A program made the position numbers and the translations under genes. 52,172 bases of DNA from Paenibacillus aceti (GTDB lineage: Bacteria; Bacillota; Bacilli; Paenibacillales; Paenibacillaceae), in the NCBI RefSeq assembly GCF_003614185.1, contig NZ_KZ987724.1, positions 5,195,554 through 5,247,725 of the forward strand, in the 5' to 3' direction. The notes under the pieces are model-generated. The model ran no database searches, had not been told where the DNA came from, and worked only from the letters and a program-made list of their open reading frames with translations. This document shows, piece by piece, positions 5,864 to 52,172 of the stretch (its first letter is position 1; each line of letters starts with the position of its first letter).

Positions 5864-5904
5864 TTAACGGGGGTAGTGAGCAAGCGTCATATCCCAGGCG
5901 GAGC

Positions 5905-6091
5905 TCTAACGAAACACCATATCGTTATTTCGGCGAAATCAGCACCAACTCAGATCTAACGAAACACCATATCGTTATTTTGATGAAATCCTGGGGTTAA
6001 GGCCGAAAAATGCCTCAATAGCGATCCCCAGTTTCGTTACATTTTGAAATCGTCCTTTTTGATGCAAATAGCAATACCTTGTTTCGTTAAA
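5905..6091. repeat. Four-unit inverted repeat element, locus 1
   Basis: The 438-bp gap between the stress gene and the SpoIIP-like gene holds four copies of a dyad unit, TAACGAAAC-N5-ATCGTTA. Two are forward (5905-5930, 5955-5980) and two are reverse complemented (about 6016-6041 and 6066-6091). Unit centres are 50, 61 and 50 bp apart, so the block is symmetric about position 5998. The five central bases vary between copies. The two forward copies are identical over the unit. Each unit is itself an imperfect dyad (TAACGA-N9-TCGTTA). The same element recurs at 46146-46332. No open reading frame of note overlaps it. Confidence 0.85.
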
Positions 6092-6229
6092 ATGTGGGAT
6101 AAGCACGAATTCACATTTATTCTCGTAATCTAGCAATTTGTTGGATAGTTTCGGCGAATTTTGGAAGGAATTAATCTATCCATGTCGAATTAATAGAGCA
6201 AGACTATCGACGTTGGGAGAGAATGTATT

Positions 6230-7894: not shown

Positions 7895-7930
7895 AGACAT
7901 AGAGAGGGCGAAGAATTCGCCCCGCACAAT

Positions 7931-8001
7931 CGCTCGTATAACCTTGGGAATATGGCCCGGGAGTCTCTACCCGATTACCGTAAATTATCGGACTACGAGT
8001 G
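7931..8001 (+). ncRNA. Purine riboswitch aptamer (guanine class)
   Basis: P1 pairs CGCTCGTA (7931-7938) with TACGAGTG (7994-8001). Conserved junction and loop blocks follow the known order: TATAACC, GGGAATATGGCCC, GTCTCTACCC, ACCGTAAATTATCGG and GACTAC. The pyrimidine after the last GA, which contacts the ligand, is C (GACTAC). That predicts guanine/hypoxanthine rather than adenine. A GGGCGAA-GAA-TTCGCCC hairpin (7907-7923) stands just before P1. Ligand binding should reduce expression of the pur genes. Confidence 0.93.
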
Positions 8002-8393
8002 AATACGTCATCTAGGTAGGTCATACCATTCTCCTTACGGATCATTGGAACAACGACATGCAGCATGCCGAGAACGGGTCTTGAGGATCTGACGATCCTT
8101 GCATGGGTTAATGAAGATGGGAATACGCCTTTTATGGGCTGAACCGCGGTGTGGCAAGGCCTAAGGGACGAATTAGCCACATTAGACATCATCATTAACA
8201 TCATCAAACCGAATGTTCTGGTTCCCGCAGACCGCAGAGGGGCGTATTCACTTTTGGTCCGGATTTCTTGGAAATACTTTGTTATTTCTTGGAGTTTCCT
8301 GGACTTTTTTTGTCTTTAAATATCTCTGGTGACGTGACACTAGTCGCATTACAGCAGAAAATATTACCTTATAAGAAGAAAGTAGGTTATAGA
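8002..8393 (+). promoter_or_regulatory. Long purE leader / expression platform
   Basis: The 392 bases between the aptamer and purE contain no convincing gene. GTGAATACG (7999-8007, starting inside the P1 3' strand) and GAATACGCC (8121-8129) are each perfectly complementary to GGCGTATTCAC (8241-8251), so the two compete for one partner. The second pairing is followed by ACTTTTGG, a weak terminator tail. Further local hairpins are AGGATC-TGAC-GATCCT (near 8086-8101) and a GTGGC/GCCAC stem (near 8151-8182). The switch to termination is inferred, not shown. Confidence 0.5.
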
Positions 8394-17194: not shown

Positions 17195-17248
17195 TAGTGT
17201 GATTAATGATGTGAAATATCAAATCAAGTTATAAGGAGTGTTTCCTTC

Positions 17249-18292
17249 GTGTCAGAAGCATATAAGAACGCCGGGGTGGACATCGCGGCCGGCAATGAAG
17301 CGGTAGAACGGATGAAGAAGCACGTCAAACGGACGTTCCGTCCGGAGGTCATGACCGATCTGGGTGGGTTCGGCGCTTTATTCGGCTTGAACAAGGATAA
17401 ATATGAGGAGCCGGTGCTCGTCTCGGGAACCGATGGTGTGGGAACGAAGCTGAAGATTGCCTTTGCGATGGATAAGCATGACACGATTGGCATCGACGCG
17501 GTGGCGATGTGTGTGAACGACGTCGTTGTTCAAGGCGCGGAGCCGTTATTCTTCCTCGATTATCTGGCCTGCGATAAGGTGGTACCAGCCAAAATCGAAG
17601 CGATCGTTGCCGGAATTGCCGAGGGCTGTCATGAATCCGGCTGTGCGCTGATCGGCGGAGAAACCGCTGAGATGCCGGGCATGTACGCAGAAGGTGAATA
17701 TGATATCGCTGGATTTACCGTAGGCGTTGTGGATAAAAGTAAAATTGTGAACGGCAGTCAGATCGCTTCTGGTGATGTAGTGCTCGGCCTCACTTCCAGT
17801 GGAGTTCACAGCAATGGCTTCTCGCTGGTGCGCAAGCTGTTATTAGAAGATGGCAGTTACGGTTTGCAGGATGAAGTGACGGAGCTAGGTGGTGCGAAGC
17901 TAGGTGATGTATTGCTTACGCCAACGAAGCTGTATGTGAAGCCTGTGCTTGCCTTACTGGAGAAGGTACAGGTGAAGGGCATGGCCCATATTACTGGCGG
18001 TGGCTTCATCGAGAATATTCCGCGCGTACTGCCGGAAGGAGTTAATGTAGAAGTCGATTACGGCTCCTGGCCGATTCAACCAATCTTCTCCCTGCTTCAG
18101 CAGCAAGGCAATGTCAGCAACCGTGATATGTTCACGACCTTCAATATGGGGATCGGTCTGGTGATTGTCGTTGCCGCGGATCAGGCAGAAGCTGCTCTTG
18201 CCGCACTTCGTGCTGCTGGAGAACAACCGTATACCATCGGCCGAGTTACTGAAGGCAATCGGGAAGTGACCTTCAAGGGAGTCGAAATCTGA
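17249..18292 (+). CDS. purM: Phosphoribosylformylglycinamidine cyclo-ligase
   Basis: A 347-residue AIR synthetase closing the imidazole ring from FGAM with ATP. It begins at GTG, about nine bases after AAGGAGTG. The motifs [49 protein letters not shown] and [16 protein letters not shown] identify it. The last base of its stop codon is the first base of the purN start, giving translational coupling. Confidence 0.97.
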
Positions 18293-20668: not shown

Positions 20669-20856
20669 AAAAGCCTGCAAATATGCAGGCTTTTGGAATC
20701 AAATCGACTGTTTTTGTAGAATACCTGCAAATGTGCAGGCTTTTACCCTCGTTTCTGTGGAATCGGGCCAAAATCCGGAAAAAGGATGCATTATCGCAGG
20801 AATTTTCTAATATCGGTGGGTTGGACGCGCAAAAGCCTGCATTTTTGCAGGAATTG
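20669..20856. repeat. Four-unit inverted repeat element, second unit family
   Basis: The 579-bp purH-purD gap holds four dyads of the form CCTGCA-N4-TGCAGG. Two (core 20674-20689 and 20724-20739) carry GCTTTT on the right. Two (20785-20800, degenerate, and 20836-20851) are inverted, with GCTTTT on the complementary strand. Core centres are 50, 61 and 51 bp apart, matching the forward-forward-reverse-reverse geometry of the elements at 5905 and 46146, though the unit sequence is unrelated. The first unit, flanked by AAAAG and CTTTT, could also terminate transcription in either direction. Confidence 0.8.
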
Positions 20857-43185: not shown

Positions 43186-43677
43186 TTAGCGGCGTTTTTT
43201 GGCAGGTGCTTTGCCATTGCGAGGGCGGGAGGATGGGCGTTTGCTGCCTTTCCTTCCGCTCTTCCTTCCGCTTCCTTTGCGGCGCGGTTTGTATTCGTCC
43301 AGATTGTCGTCGCTCTTGCCCTTGGCTCCTGGAAGCAGGCTGGTGAACATTTTGGCCATTGGCGCGAATTGCTGAACGGTTTGCATAATTTTTTGTACCT
43401 TGCCCATTGTGGCGACGATTCCGTCGATTCCACCCATGCGGTCGATCATGCCTTTCAGATCGCCCAGATTCGGAATGGAGAATCCGCCTCCAGCCTTGGC
43501 TGCCGAATTGGTAGCAGCGGGGAGCGGATCGGTCGGCTGTGAATAAGGAACAAGCGCAGAAGCCTCGACGATCTCGGATGGATCGGAATCATACGGCGTA
43601 ATCCCTGGATAATTGTGCGAGTAGGGATACGAAGGGGGCGTCGCACTTCGCCGTGGAGGAGTGTAATGCGGCATCAT
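43186..43677 (-). CDS. YqfQ-like protein with basic tail
   Basis: A 163-residue protein on the minus strand. The ATG complementary to 43675-43677 follows AAGGAAAG; the frame could extend to 43740 without a good site. A Pro/Tyr/Ser-rich N terminus (MMPHYTPPRRSATPPSYPYS) leads to a central helical region, FSIPNLGDLKGMIDRMGG and VQKIMQTVQQFAPMAKMF. That region resembles the YqfQ-like (VrrA-related) family. The tail is Lys/Arg/Ser/Gly-rich, ending GKAPAKKRR. Function unknown; YqfQ proteins are associated with sporulating Bacilli. Confidence 0.65.
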   Translation of the reverse strand: MMPHYTPPRRSATPPSYPYSHNYPGITPYDSDPSEIVEASALVPYSQPTDPLPAATNSAAKAGGGFSIPNLGDLKGMIDRMGGIDGIVATMGKVQKIMQTVQQFAPMAKMFTSLLPGAKGKSDDNLDEYKPRRKGSGRKSGRKGSKRPSSRPRNGKAPAKKRR

Positions 43678-43914
43678 ATCACTTTCCTTTACATAGTATT
43701 GTGTCAGGAGGTGGGCAGCAGCCTCCGGCGCTTCTCCCATTCCTGGTTATGCATATAAACCGTTAGTGTGACTAGGATAATTCTTTAGTAAATAGGCATT
43801 TGCAATAATACAATGTATGTATCTACCCAGATTTTCGTCTGGACGAATGTCCCGGTTTTGTGGGCATTTGCGGAAAATGGGCGTTCTTTCTGTGATGCGT
43901 GAAATCGTTAATGC

Positions 43915-43944
43915 TTGAAAAAGGTGACCTTACTCGGGTACAAT
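43915..43944 (+). promoter_or_regulatory. Promoter of the YerC-like gene
   Basis: TTGAAA (43915-43920) and TACAAT (43939-43944) are 18 bp apart. The position, downstream of an in-frame ATG at 43899, argues that the gene really starts at the later GTG. Confidence 0.6.
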
Positions 43945-43982
43945 GGTGGTGTGGTACAGTAACGGTAGGGGATGATGATTCA

Positions 43983-44273
43983 GTGCAACTTAAGAAGTTG
44001 AATGATAAGACGATCGATCAATTGTTTGAAGCGATACTTTCTTTAAAGAATGTTGAGGAGTGCTACGTCTTCTTTGATGATCTTTGTACAGTTAACGAAA
44101 TACAGTCGCTCTCCCAGCGTCTGGAAGTAGCGAGAATGCTTGGCAAAGGTTCTACATATAATCAGATCGAAGCTGAGACTGGAGCTAGTACGGCAACGAT
44201 TTCACGCGTTAAGCGCTGTCTTAATTATGGCAATGACGGGTATAAAATGGCGCTTGAGCGCATCAACCTGTAA
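43983..44273 (+). CDS. YerC/YecD-type TrpR-like regulator
   Basis: A 96-residue DNA-binding protein beginning at GTG. The sequence follows B. subtilis YerC closely: LFEAILSLKNVEECYVFFDDL, CTVNEIQSLSQRLEVARML, and the helix-turn-helix TYNQIEAETGASTATISRVKRCLNYGNDGY. Relatives belong to the TrpR superfamily, but tryptophan binding is not established for this branch. The start is set by homology and by the promoter at 43915-43944; GGGGATGATG lies before it. Its stop is two bases before the chelatase gene. Confidence 0.9.
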   Translation: MQLKKLNDKTIDQLFEAILSLKNVEECYVFFDDLCTVNEIQSLSQRLEVARMLGKGSTYNQIEAETGASTATISRVKRCLNYGNDGYKMALERINL

Positions 44274-44275
44274 TT

Positions 44276-45121
44276 GTGAAGACAGGGCCAGGGACATCAC
44301 AGGATTGGATAGTCGGTCAGGGGGCATATGGCATAAAGAGTTCTCCGGGGAAGCCAGGGGTACTTGTTATTAGTCACGGGTCCCCTGATTCGGACTGGGT
44401 AGCCTTCGTTGACGAAGCGGTTGCAGGTGCGGCGGGTGAACTGCAGGCAAGTATTCCAATCGTATCCTCCTTCCTGGAGATTGTGGAAGGACGGCTGATC
44501 CAAGATGGAATCGATCAGCTGGAAGCCTGGGGAGTGACAGATATTATCGTCATTCCGTTATTTGTCTCGTCGGGCAGTACTCATATCGATGAGATTTCAT
44601 ATGCACTTGGCATGAAGAGCACGCCGGAGAAGGAAACGGATCTAGAGCCTTTTTCCTTATCTGCCCGCGTGTTTTTTGGCGATCCCATCGACGATGATCC
44701 GATCGTGGCCGAGATCGTCTGGGATAAGGTGAAGGAGCTATCTAGCAGGCCGGAGAGGGAGGTGCTGCTTCTCGTTGGTCATGGCAGCCGGCATGAGGGC
44801 TTCCGGCAGCGCTGGGAGCGGGGGATCGCGGGACTATCCGCGCGTGTTGGCCGCCTTGGCGGGCTGGCTCATGCGGATTATGCGCTTCTTAGTCCGGATA
44901 GCTTGCGCAGCAAGGTAAGCTATTGGCAGGAAGAGCGGGGCTATGAGGTGATCGTTGCTCCGCTTTTTTTGAGCAAGGGCTACTTCACCGGCACAGTGAT
45001 TCCAACTCGTCTTGAGGGACTATCTTATCATTACCTGGGAGAGGCTTTGTTGCCGCATTCCAGGTTGTCCCGCTGGATATCTTATCAGATATTGAATATA
45101 ATGGGATCATTGAAATTATGA
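44276..45121 (+). CDS. CbiX/SirB-type chelatase
   Basis: A 281-residue protein starting at GTG just after the YerC-like gene. Two CbiX repeats are present, each with a metal-handling His motif: VLVISHGSPDSDW near residue 33 and LLLVGHGSRHEGF near residue 167. TDIIVIPLFVSSGSTHIDEI and YEVIVAPLFLSKGYFTGTVI contain the second His or equivalent. The family inserts cobalt or iron into sirohydrochlorin for cobalamin or siroheme. No other tetrapyrrole gene is nearby, so the metal is not predictable, and the second repeat lacks the usual second His. Confidence 0.85.
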   Translation: MKTGPGTSQDWIVGQGAYGIKSSPGKPGVLVISHGSPDSDWVAFVDEAVAGAAGELQASIPIVSSFLEIVEGRLIQDGIDQLEAWGVTDIIVIPLFVSSGSTHIDEISYALGMKSTPEKETDLEPFSLSARVFFGDPIDDDPIVAEIVWDKVKELSSRPEREVLLLVGHGSRHEGFRQRWERGIAGLSARVGRLGGLAHADYALLSPDSLRSKVSYWQEERGYEVIVAPLFLSKGYFTGTVIPTRLEGLSYHYLGEALLPHSRLSRWISYQILNIMGSLKL

Positions 45122-45142
45122 TAAACAGGTGGCGTTCAAGTA

Positions 45143-46030
45143 ATGAAAAAAGCTAGGCTTATCTATAATCCTACTTCCGGAAGGGAAGAAATGCGGAGAT
45201 TGCTCCCATCTATTCTGGATCGGTTGGACCAGGCCGGTATAGAGACGTCTTGTCATGCGACGACGGGAGACGGCGATGCTACACGTGAGGCCGCTGAATC
45301 CGTGCAGCGTGGCTATGACATTCTTATTGCTGCCGGCGGCGATGGGACGCTGAACGAGGTCGTGAACGGGATGGCAGGGTATGATGATTTGCCGCCATTA
45401 GGTATTTTTCCGCTTGGAACGACCAATGACTTCGCGCGGGCCATGAAAATTCCGAAGCGCTGGGAAGATTTCTGTGATCTGGTGATTGAGAACAAGACGA
45501 GACCGATTGATATCGGCAAGGTGAACGGACGACATTTTATAAATATTGCTGGCGGCGGCTCGCTGACGGAATTAACCTATGAGGTTCCAAGCCGCCTGAA
45601 GACGATGATCGGTCAATTGGCCTATTACATGAAGGGTATCGAGAAGATGATCAATCTCTCGCCAACGGAGCTGGTTATCCGTGCCGAAGGGATCGGCGAG
45701 GTAGAGGGCGAGTTCATGATGTTCCTGATCGCGAACAGCAACTCGGTTGGCGGCTTCGAGCGGCTGGCGCCGGACGCCAGAATCGATGACGGCTTGCTTG
45801 ACGTCATTGCCGTGAAGAAATGCAATCTGGCAGAGTTTATCCGCCTGGTCAGCATGGCACTGCGAGGCGATCATTTCAATGATCCGCGGATTATGTACTT
45901 CAAGACCGAACGGATGGAGGTTACCTCCCCAGGACATGTCTTGCTTAACCTGGATGGTGAGCTCGGCGGCGAGCTCCCAGGCGTTTTCGAGATTTTGCCG
46001 CGGCATTTGCATATTTTTTCGCATGAGTAG
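45143..46030 (+). CDS. dgkB: Diacylglycerol/lipid kinase (DgkB/YerQ-like)
   Basis: A 295-residue cytoplasmic kinase of the DAGK catalytic family. ARLIYNPTSGREEMRRLL begins the protein and the ATP-binding IAAGGDGTLNEVVNGMAG is intact. LGIFPLGTTNDFARAM and DIGKVNGRHFINIAGGG complete the nucleotide fold, and LLNLDGELGGELPGVFEILP is the C-terminal motif. It recycles diacylglycerol to phosphatidic acid, needed with lipoteichoic acid synthesis. As in B. subtilis (yerQ-yefA) it precedes the RlmCD-type methyltransferase. Confidence 0.92.
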   Translation: MKKARLIYNPTSGREEMRRLLPSILDRLDQAGIETSCHATTGDGDATREAAESVQRGYDILIAAGGDGTLNEVVNGMAGYDDLPPLGIFPLGTTNDFARAMKIPKRWEDFCDLVIENKTRPIDIGKVNGRHFINIAGGGSLTELTYEVPSRLKTMIGQLAYYMKGIEKMINLSPTELVIRAEGIGEVEGEFMMFLIANSNSVGGFERLAPDARIDDGLLDVIAVKKCNLAEFIRLVSMALRGDHFNDPRIMYFKTERMEVTSPGHVLLNLDGELGGELPGVFEILPRHLHIFSHE

Positions 46031-46087
46031 AAGAAGATTTAGGCGTGGTTCGTTTGCGGATATGACCGTTAGGTAGTCGTTTGAAGC

Positions 46088-46332
46088 TCTAACGATGGAT
46101 GCCAATCGTTTGGGGCTCTAACGAAGTTAGCCAATCGTTTGAAGCTCTAACGAAACTACAGATCGCTATTTCCGCATTAGTAGTGGCAATTTTAATCTAA
46201 CGAAACTCTGGATCGTTATTAGGGAGAAATAGGGGCTTTAAGCTCCTGATTTGAGCGAATAGCGATACCTAGTTTCGTTAGAATTTGCCGAAGCTTTTTT
46301 GGGTCCAAATAACGATACCCAGTTTCGTTAGA
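46088..46332. repeat. Four-unit inverted repeat element, locus 2, with tandem extension
   Basis: The gap between dgkB and the methyltransferase gene holds the same unit family as at 5905. The core has forward copies at 46146-46171 and 46196-46221 and reversed copies at about 46257-46282 and 46307-46332. Centres are again 50, 61 and 50 bp apart. The dyad centre at 46239 lies inside the near-palindrome AGGGGCTTTAAGCTCCT. Two extra degenerate copies (46088-46110 and 46117-46139, TCTAACGA...AATCGTT) precede it at 29-bp steps. Nothing else recognisable is in this gap. Confidence 0.85.
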
Positions 46333-46447
46333 AACGGGAATCAGCGTTCCCCTGCCTTATTGGCGGGGGTTTTGCATGAGGTGAGAGAGTGTACGTCGTA
46401 ACATGAAATAGACTTAGACTTAAGTGGAAAGAAGTGAAGCGGTAGCC

Positions 46448-47974
46448 ATGAGGAAACAGCGGGATCGGGCAAGAGGCAGGAAGGCAGCGGATACAGGTAA
46501 TAAGGAAGCGCTAGCCGGATTGCCGGTTGCCAAGAACGACGAGGTAATGATCGACATCATCGGGATGAACCATGACGGTGAGGGTGTAGGCCGTGCCGAA
46601 GGCTACACGCTGTTCGTCGCAGGGGCGCTCCCGGGTGAACAAGCGCGGGTCAAGGTGCTGAAGACGAAGAAGCAGTATGGTTACGCCAAGCTGCTTGAGC
46701 TGCTTCAGACCAGTCCGCAGCGTGTAGCAGCGCCTTGCCCGATCTATCATCAATGCGGCGGCTGCCAGCTTCAACATTTGAGCTATTCTGGCCAATTGGA
46801 GTGGAAGCGTCAGCATGTTGTAGATGCCCTGGAGCGGATCGGGAAACTGACGGTGGTGAAGGAAGCCGGGAGCTCTGGAGTGCCAGATGAGCGAAAGAAT
46901 GCTTGGAACTCTGAAGGAGCGGACCTGGCCAAGCAAGTTGATTCAGTTCCTATTAAGGTGCTTCCGACCTTGGGGATGTCCGAACCATGGCGTTATCGCA
47001 ACAAAGCTCAAGTACCTGTTGGTGTGACGGATGGGGCTTTAGTCGGCGGTTTTTATGCCCGTGGCAGCCATCGCATCATCGACATGGAGACCTGTCTCAT
47101 CCAGCATGAGAGTAATGACGATGTAGTGGCTAGGGTGAAGGAGATCGCTCGTCGTCTTGGTATCACAGCCTACGATGAGGAATCCGGACAAGGTTTGCTT
47201 CGCCATGTTGTCGTGAAGGTAGGCTTCCGTACGGGCGAAATGATGCTCGTCCTTGTGACGAACGGGGACAAGATCCCCCATGTTAAGGAGTGGATCGAAG
47301 CGATCCGCAATGAAATTCCAGCGGTCGCAAGCATTTGTCAGAACGTGAATAAGAGACAGACGAATGTCATCTTTGGCGATGTCACCCGCGTCCTGTGGGG
47401 GCTTGAGACGATCTATGATTATATCGGAGATGTGAAGTTCGCCATTTCGGCGCGTTCTTTTTATCAAGTGAACCCTGTGCAGACTGAGGTGTTGTACGGG
47501 AGAACTGTGGAATATGCCGGACTCACCGGCCAAGAGACGGTGATCGATGCTTATTGCGGAATTGGCACCATTTCCTTGTTCCTGGCGCAGCATGCCGCTA
47601 AAGTATATGGAGTCGAAATTGTACCGGAAGCGATTGAAGATGCGCGTCGCAATGCGGAGCTGAACGGCATGAATAACGTGACCTTTGAGGTCGGCGCTTC
47701 CGAGGATGTCATCCCGGCCTGGAAGGAACAAGGCGTCGAAGCTGACATCATCGTCGTCGACCCGCCGCGCAAAGGCTGTGATCCTCGCCTGTTAGAGACG
47801 ATTCTCGAAATGAAGCCGAAGCGAGTGGTCTATGTATCGTGCAACCCTTCCACGTTGGCACGGGATTTGCGTGTACTGGAAGACGGCGGCTACCGCACCG
47901 TTGAGGTGCAGCCAGTGGATATGTTCCCGCATACGGTGCATGTGGAGAGCGTAGCATCACTGCACTTGAGTTAA
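46448..47974 (+). CDS. rlmCD: 23S rRNA (uracil-5-)-methyltransferase, RlmCD type
   Basis: A 508-residue SAM-dependent m5U methyltransferase. An N-terminal basic stretch and TRAM domain ([20 protein letters not shown]... [19 protein letters not shown]) bind [20 protein letters not shown] is the iron-sulfur ligand region. The Rossmann fold has [16 protein letters not shown], the target-binding [10 protein letters not shown] and the catalytic Cys in [13 protein letters not shown]. Firmicutes use one such enzyme for two 23S positions (RlmCD/YefA). A linker of about 50 residues between the cysteine motif and [12 protein letters not shown] is longer than usual. The start is uncertain; a GTG at 46424 is also possible. 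Confidence 0.9.
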
Positions 47975-48086
47975 TCATTAACAAAGGTTCCATGCCGTTG
48001 TTATTATCAATAGCAATAGCCCATTTTTGCAGTTTTTATTTTTCGGGATGAAGATTTATCCTGGTATTGATAGAGAGGTTTTTGAT

Positions 48087-51982: not shown

Positions 51983-52172
51983 CTTTATTGGAGAGTTTGA
52001 TCCTGGCTCAGGACGAACGCTGGCGGCGTGCCTAATACATGCAAGTCGAGCGGACTTGATGGAGAGCTTGCTCTCCAGAGAGTTAGCGGCGGACGGGTGA
52101 GTAACACGTAGGCAACCTGCCTGTAAGACTGGGATAACTAGCGGAAACGTTAGCTAATACCGGATAATTTAT
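51983..52172 (+). rRNA. 16S ribosomal RNA, 5' part
   Basis: The 16S 5' end is recognisable: TTTATTGGAGAGTTTGATCC followed by TGGCTCAGGACGAACGCTGG, CGGCGTGCCTAATACATGCA and, after the first variable region, GCGGCGGACGGGTGAGTAAC. The gene runs off the right edge. The variable region (GAGCGGACTTGATGGAGAGC and TTGCTCTCCAGAGAGTTAGC) has the Paenibacillus pattern. The exact mature 5' end is set by analogy with B. subtilis. Confidence 0.97.

Follow-up and report, generated by a model that had tools for sequence, protein, structure and literature searches.

Nucleosome-positioning DNA carries A/T blocks about every 10 bp on wrapped DNA, and the Bacillus cereus group, which belongs to a related class, has bcr repeats, short sequences dispersed between genes. 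REPINs, the inverted doublets of REP units, are placed at 71 or 110 bp in the part of PMC3116915 drawn on here, and REP units adjoin a GTAG-like tetranucleotide (PMC3733652, in part). E. coli BIME-2 repeats are DNA gyrase sites, and the gyrase motif, whose two flanking arms vary periodically in G+C, is said to resemble nucleosomes (passages of PMC6379681). RemA of Bacillus subtilis reportedly forms rings of 8 and 16, wraps DNA and protects A/T-rich 7-bp stretches that lie 3 bp apart, of which the authors expected 16 for the 16-mer, and the regions at the eps and tap promoters show a period of approximately 10 bp in A/T over more than 100 bp (excerpts of PMC8481266).

The elements analyzed here were first noticed in a window of 52,172 nucleotides of Paenibacillus aceti DNA, the whole stretch under study. 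They resemble REPs and REPINs in having inverted palindromic units, fixed spacing and tandem clusters of whole elements; a REPIN, however, consists of two boxes, whereas these elements have four boxes, a fixed total length and a 10-bp A/T wave. They share with BIME-2 the intergenic position and the periodic composition of gyrase sites, but BIME-2 lacks a fixed-spacing quartet of boxes. Compared by sequence alone, they have the A/T period of the RemA regions, yet each of the latter is one promoter region whose repeats are weakly conserved, while the present elements are dispersed at high copy and carry strong family-specific boxes. The likeness to nucleosome-positioning DNA lies in the A/T blocks at approximately 10 bp, although the elements are bacterial and have fixed boxes and a fixed length. 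The bcr repeats are alike in being short, intergenic and dispersed.

Four-box elements of the window

Elements of four units in forward-forward-reverse-reverse order had been described at three intergenic loci by the first-pass annotation, and all three could be located where it had placed them. The elements and their boxes are as follows.

5907..6089, + strand: element 1, family 1 (TAACGAAAC boxes), intergenic, 183 bp; nhmmer match 5900-6095
5907..5927, + strand: element 1 box 1, TAACGAAACACCATATCGTTA, 0 mismatches
5957..5977, + strand: element 1 box 2, 0 mismatches
6019..6039, - strand: element 1 box 3, inverted, 1 mismatch
6069..6089, - strand: element 1 box 4, inverted, 2 mismatches
20669..20856, unstranded: element 2, family 2 (CCTGCA-N4-TGCAGG boxes), intergenic
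20674..20689, unstranded: element 2 box 1, CCTGCA-N4-TGCAGG pattern match
20724..20739, unstranded: element 2 box 2, CCTGCA-N4-TGCAGG pattern match
20785..20800, unstranded: element 2 box 3, degenerate (GATGCA-TTAT-CGCAGG), from the sequence and the unit-free scan, missed by the CCTGCA-N4-TGCAGG pattern
20836..20851, unstranded: element 2 box 4, CCTGCA-N4-TGCAGG pattern match
46148..46330, + strand: element 3, family 1, intergenic, 183 bp; nhmmer match 46142-46335
46148..46168, + strand: element 3 box 1, 1 mismatch
46198..46218, + strand: element 3 box 2, 0 mismatches
46260..46280, - strand: element 3 box 3, inverted, 1 mismatch
46310..46330, - strand: element 3 box 4, inverted, 0 mismatches

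Elements 1 and 3 were both 183 bp long, with TAACGAAAC box starts 50 bp apart and the right-hand pair inverted. All four unit cores of element 1 gave an ACC-like reading on the + strand. Spacings of 50/61/50 had been reported for 5905-6091 and 46146-46332; the two outer distances of 50 hold, but the middle distance measured on the TAACGA/TCGTTA dyads was 62 (50/62/50 in both elements), and the value of 61 hinges on the unit centre chosen. For element 2, the reported 50/61/51 agreed with the measured CCTGCA-N4-TGCAGG centres at 20681.5, 20731.5, 20792.5 (degenerate) and 20843.5. In the window, 13 matches to the family-1 single unit were counted with 3 mismatches allowed and both strands included (palindromic units thus being counted twice), where shuffled sequence gave a mean of 0.28.

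Three tandem repeats of 28-29 bp with TCTAACGA in common occupied 46068-46153, directly before element 3, whose left end was embedded in this small array. The window also contained a purine riboswitch aptamer at 7914-8015 (80.8 bits, Rfam) and the start of a 16S ribosomal RNA gene at 51985-52172, which runs off the window end.

Copy number, spacing and distribution

The four-box family-1 pattern (up to 3 mismatches) occurred at 105 places in the 5.6-Mb genome of the window, against 0 for the reversed pattern. Single family-1 units (up to 2 mismatches) gave 325 and 326 matches on the two strands versus 0 and 2 with the reversed pattern, and family-2 units gave 212 and 220 versus 2 and 0 in the control. 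The pattern positions in this genome are a sample, among the matches listed. A terminus-avoiding distribution resembling that of nucleoid occlusion was considered from a gap among the matches listed and was rejected, as the four-box search found elements inside the gap.

A unit-free scan, which accepted any set of four 22-bp units arranged forward-forward-reverse-reverse, was conducted on 400 contiguous kb of the same genome plus the window (452 kb). When arm and centre spacings were allowed to range over 24-130 bp, only arms of 50 (18), 51 (7) and 53 bp (1) were recovered. With independent arms of 45-56 bp, 37 elements were found, all with arm spacings of 48-51 bp, distributed as (50,50) 17, (51,51) 7, (51,50) 6, (49,50) 3, (50,51) 3 and (48,50) 1. 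Reading the units of these 37 revealed four families: TAACGAAAC (18), CCTGCA (10), the CGGACA/GCGGTCA type (3) and the TTGCA type (6). Family-1 multi-unit clusters in the 452 kb were nearly all complete quartets; 17 had the ++-- order within 2 bp of 50/62/50, one of them carrying an extra unit, and with 3 mismatches allowed 49 lone units were seen, part of which are chance matches. Simple direct-repeat distances in this genome peaked at 50 bp (40) and 51 bp (15) over a median of 1, and no clear 50-bp peak appeared in the corresponding histograms of genomes G053 or G090.

The order of units was compared in the window's genome and in G006, another genome of the set. Counts in G006 and the window's genome, respectively, were 17 and 23 for FFRR, 3 and 18 for FFFF, 3 and 11 for FRFR, and 1 and 8 for FRRF (F forward, R reverse); the high FFFF count in the latter may stem from the palindromic family-2 boxes.

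In 40 kb each of ten other genomes, the unit-free scan (30-89 bp) recovered 10 elements from five genomes, every one with arms of 50-52 bp (10/10) and mostly with different units, and 0 elements from G010, G011, G020, G045 and G046. The scan undercounts, since G020 gave none by scan but 52 matches to the generic pattern described below. G006 yielded 25 elements in 280 kb, 24 of which had arm spacings of 50-52 bp, while the odd one (41/40/41) was a tandem-repeat artefact; one Markov-resampled copy of the same 280 kb gave 0. G053 and G090 yielded 2 and 3 elements, respectively, in 120 kb each. The first-pass annotation had suggested selection on spacing and had named random spacings across the genome as the refuting outcome; that check was run and did not refute the claim. 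Constraint on spacing is strongly supported, since unrelated unit families share the geometry both in this genome and across the order.

The strict family-1 pattern was present in 10 of 99 relatives, the window's genome included. A generic pattern, in which each of the four boxes need only begin with TAACG and one mismatch was tolerated, was found in 82 of the 246 genomes of the order, spread over 31 of 46 genera, at up to 134 copies, while its control gave 0 in every one of the 246. Carriers among the matches listed include Paenibacillus sp. GM2, D2_2, P. glycanilyticus, P. daejeonensis, P. pasadenensis and Cohnella zeiphila. In a sample of the class, the generic pattern occurred in 6 of 200 genomes and in 1 of the 183 outside the order (G318, 3 copies). 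The three elements of G318 were of the TAACGGACA/TAACGGTCA type with the same geometry, which suggests transfer or an older origin. A search of plasmids and phages with element 3 as the query gave no match.

Conservation and dispersal

Conservation was assessed on 63 of 74 family-1 elements, after removal of 8 loci of other lineages and 3 near-duplicates. The per-position majority stood at 0.99 for the strong halves (9 bp) and 0.85 for the remaining unit positions, and dropped to 0.67 across the filler and 0.44 in flanking sequence; the fall from 0.67 to 0.44 shows that the element ends are sharp, while the box values are inflated by preselection for exact spacing and up to 5 box mismatches. 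An unselected profile search of the 452 kb found 18 full-length family-1 copies and 7 partial matches, and the strong halves of the full-length copies had 20 mismatches in 648 positions. A spacing deletion of 1-2 bp was present in 7 of these 18 copies, so the spacing rule is not absolute. All 36 strong positions were kept in 10 of 10 orthologous pairs, which was not counted as evidence because box patterns had retrieved both partners. Family-1 subfamilies (63 elements) had filler in common. A profile of boxes across families, built from 8 box groups of which two appear misregistered, is illustrative. Elements of the GGACAC/GGAAC type in G006 and G020 carried paired ATTTCCCG motifs approximately 11 bp apart in the left-arm filler, common to different species.

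Paenibacillus sp. GM2 is a close relative, with approximately 86-89% identity in most aligned genes of the window. Of 34 elements in the 400 kb, the flanks of 22 could be aligned to the GM2 stretch; for 14 of the 22 no element was detected in GM2, and the other 8 lay in gaps with some GM2 element, 3 being family 1 in both. Elements have dispersed to intergenic sites that differ between close relatives. The window gap 17195-17249 has no element, and GM2 (L155) has a family-1 element there followed by a long run of approximately 40-bp tandem repeats. Within the window, 12-19 kb is 86-89% identical to GM2, and 43200-48000 shows 97% identity with GM2 and 86-93% with G008, as if by recent exchange. 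The approximately 94% conservation of element 3 reflects this, since the 43-48 kb region is 97% identical to GM2 throughout.

These differences between close relatives raise the possibility, on balance a doubtful one, of a MITE-like element whose transposase binds two sites per end, the fixed geometry being that of the transposition complex. Besides the 14 of 22 flank-aligned elements missing from GM2, it is favored by seven G006 copies with a common core, in which agreement was 0.80-1.00 per 10 bp inside and approximately 0.5 outside, similarity being lost within approximately 20 bp; by the occurrence of one element on each of four viral contigs, the L321 copy sitting between two phage tail genes; and by the subfamilies with filler in common. 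Boxes 1 and 4 also bound the conserved region as an inverted pair, as terminal inverted repeats of a MITE would. However, no target-site duplication was detected for lengths of 2-9 bp at offsets 0-13 in 187 of 199 elements (best z 3.6 of approximately 1,570 comparisons), although rapid flank divergence might mask old duplications. Among 199 forward arms, 137 had the standard centre, 26 had both and 13 had one inverted box near the standard place, and 23 had neither, 18 of the latter looking like misread inverted arms; no convincing long-centre or gene-containing version was present among these mostly pattern-retrieved sequences. In addition, no transposase was found, and unrelated families sharing one fixed centre are unexpected for MITEs. 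The non-autonomous mobile element put forward by the first-pass annotation is thus borne out as to dispersal but not in its classical form, given that no target-site duplication was detected, that no convincing long centre was seen among these sequences and that Y1 transposase was absent from 10 of 17 carriers.

All 37 elements of the scan lay outside crude gene calls, with neighbors in tandem (21), convergent (9), divergent (6) or unknown (1) orientation. GM2 contained tandem arrays of whole elements with periods, among the matches listed, of 201, 244, 272 and 448 bp; by locus these were approximately 244 (L170), 244 (L194), 244 (L201), 272 (L203), 201 (L209) and 448 bp (L158). Extra inverted boxes at a step of approximately 50 bp, making five or more boxes, were seen in GM2 at L203 (1270-2500) and in the aligned gap at 304k.

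A/T periodicity and proposed protein wrapping

The median A/T power in the 9.8-10.5 bp band was 8.0 for 63 family-1 elements and 16.7 for 48 others (the CGAAAC-box elements and the 41/40/41 artefact being removed), against 1.84 for 300 control intergenic segments. The control 95% level was exceeded by 50 of 63 and 47 of 48, respectively. The peak period was 10.00 bp (bootstrap 9.98-10.02) in family 1 and 10.12 bp (10.10-10.14) in the others. The 50-bp repeat does not account for the wave, since the other harmonics of 50 (8.33 and 12.5 bp) were low. With boxes masked, a sinusoid at 10.0-10.2 bp explained 0.22 and 0.17 of the variance versus 0.02 when permuted, and the centre filler alone carried the wave (1.6 vs 0.25). 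An earlier spectrum with boxes masked had peaked at 11.9 bp, which was put down to the mask; family 1 retains a minor bump at 11.5 bp. The phase fitted on boxes predicted that of the filler in six families of 63, 10, 3, 6, 9 and 7 elements (r 0.65, 0.64, 0.48, 0.56, 0.55 and 0.63; 0 of 5000 permutations each), the permutation nulls for phase and period ignoring correlation between neighboring columns; the family-1 box-only phase fit was poor (r 0.14). The filler had been described as not conserved, which is correct base by base but does not extend to its A/T-versus-G/C pattern, which is conserved.

Within the window, no other 183-bp stretch of the 52 kb matched the 10-bp A/T power of element 2 (21.2; 0 of 2000 shuffles); element 1 was moderately periodic (7.1; reached by 20 of 2000 shuffles) and element 3 weakly so (5.2; reached by 95 of 2000), its overall peak being at 11.6 bp. 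Non-element 183-bp windows of the 52 kb reached an A/T power of up to approximately 10-11.

As the A/T wave has a period of 10.0-10.1 bp, spacings of 50/61/50 bp correspond to 5/6/5 helical turns; the four boxes should therefore face one way, with the filler bending in phase. The best reading of these sequence features, to which we give a probability of approximately 55%, is a dispersing DNA element of approximately 185 bp that is bent or wrapped by an oligomeric protein; acting as double-stranded DNA read by shape and sequence is the best explanation of the elements. Among the three causes proposed in the first-pass annotation, the protein array fits best, as a putative array. The four boxes, on one helix face, would be contacted together by an oligomeric DNA-binding protein, and the phased A/T blocks would make it possible for the DNA to be bent or wrapped around this protein, so that a compact complex with dyad symmetry results. 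The element would spread whole, as one unit, and complexes still able to form would be kept, preserving the spacing while bases drift.

RemA itself is a tentative candidate for the wrapper. The elements contain A/T-rich stretches with a period of approximately 10 bp over more than 100 bp, as does RemA-wrapped DNA, and 16 contacts of a RemA 16-mer at 10 bp each would cover approximately 160 bp, close to the approximately 161 bp between the outer box centres. RemA-like genes (PF04025) were found in 23 of 23 genomes tested, with two matches each, with or without TAACG elements; because they are equally present in genomes without such elements, RemA accounts for neither the carrier genomes nor the family-specific boxes. 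RsfA, a Myb-like regulator, was considered as the family-specific partner, as TAACGG resembles a Myb site, and was rejected: TIGR02894 scored above cut-off in all 22 genomes examined, whether or not they carried TAACG elements, as a rule with one gene per genome and a few weaker extra matches (G006, G166, G189, G239). LytTR-type boxes were set aside as well; the resemblance to 9-mers tabulated in a part of PMC6193735 was loose and was not relied on, and the portion of PMC4227749 consulted yielded no LytTR consensus.

A more elaborate and rather improbable form of the wrapping reading is a counterpart of nucleosome positioning, in which self-spreading cassettes of approximately 185 bp, at hundreds of copies in some genomes, would each position one wrapped particle (e.g. 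a double RemA ring, one arm per ring), the boxes serving as diverging address tags while the helical ruler stays fixed.

It is distinctly improbable that the elements are strong chromosomal DNA gyrase sites of the BIME-2 kind, in which phased A/T blocks guide wrapping. The periodic arms of the gyrase motif, the gyrase sites of BIME-2 (PMC6379681, in part) and the intergenic position of all 37 elements by crude gene calls are in its favor, but the gyrase period of 10.75 bp given in the same excerpt differs from the 10.00-10.12 bp observed, power at 10.75 bp being at background. Gyrase is also universal whereas TAACG elements are patchy, and the four family-specific boxes are left unexplained.

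A structured RNA, whether a long hairpin, terminator or mRNA stabilizer with box 1 pairing box 4 and box 2 pairing box 3, is very improbable. The unit order permits a long hairpin, family 1 is polar with all four cores ACC on one strand, and small hairpins are possible in some filler. In the 63 family-1 elements, however, the would-be paired boxes showed no covariation (u1-u4 z -0.5, u2-u3 z -1.8; the other four box combinations z up to 1.7), and the strongest covarying columns were mostly not Watson-Crick pairs and tracked subfamilies. Columns 161-204 gave 32 pairing combinations versus 21 expected from shuffles that ignore relatedness. No Rfam match was obtained at the elements of the window (gathering threshold). 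The elements showed no clear strand preference, 7 being oriented with the genes and 4 against them, nor did they favor 3' ends (13 of 21, p 0.2), and an RNA offers no explanation for the 10.0-bp A/T wave. The folded RNA of the first-pass annotation consequently finds no support in covariation, Rfam or gene orientation.

That the elements are REPINs, inverted REP pairs mobilized by RAYT (a Y1 tyrosine transposase), is barely credible: they are likewise high-copy, intergenic, palindromic units at fixed distances with several families per genome, but the units come as quartets rather than doublets or singlets, the 14 PF01797 matches in the genome of the window are all identical-scoring copies, and RAYT/REPIN as a general explanation is refuted by the absence of PF01797 from 10 of 17 element-carrying genomes and by the flanks of Y1 copies, 10 of 12 inspected having no exact unit matches. 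The 14 Y1 copies, each of 157 aa, are unrelated to the boxes and probably represent an active IS200-like element.

The element family is real and widespread, and the tests run place its members outside REPINs, classical MITEs, gyrase sites and the known RNA families. An earlier description was not found in the open-access literature, and description elsewhere is possible. If the wrapping reading is true, what is conserved in a large class of intergenic elements of one bacterial order would be a helical ruler (5, 6 and 5 turns, each turn with its A/T block), the boxes varying by family, and a large part of the intergenic repeats in these genomes would be accounted for. The elements would be candidates for the question left unresolved in the cited part of PMC8481266, namely the length of DNA covered by the native RemA particle, and natural high-copy substrates for studies of bacterial DNA wrapping. 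They would also provide a testable case in which DNA shape is inherited more strictly than sequence.
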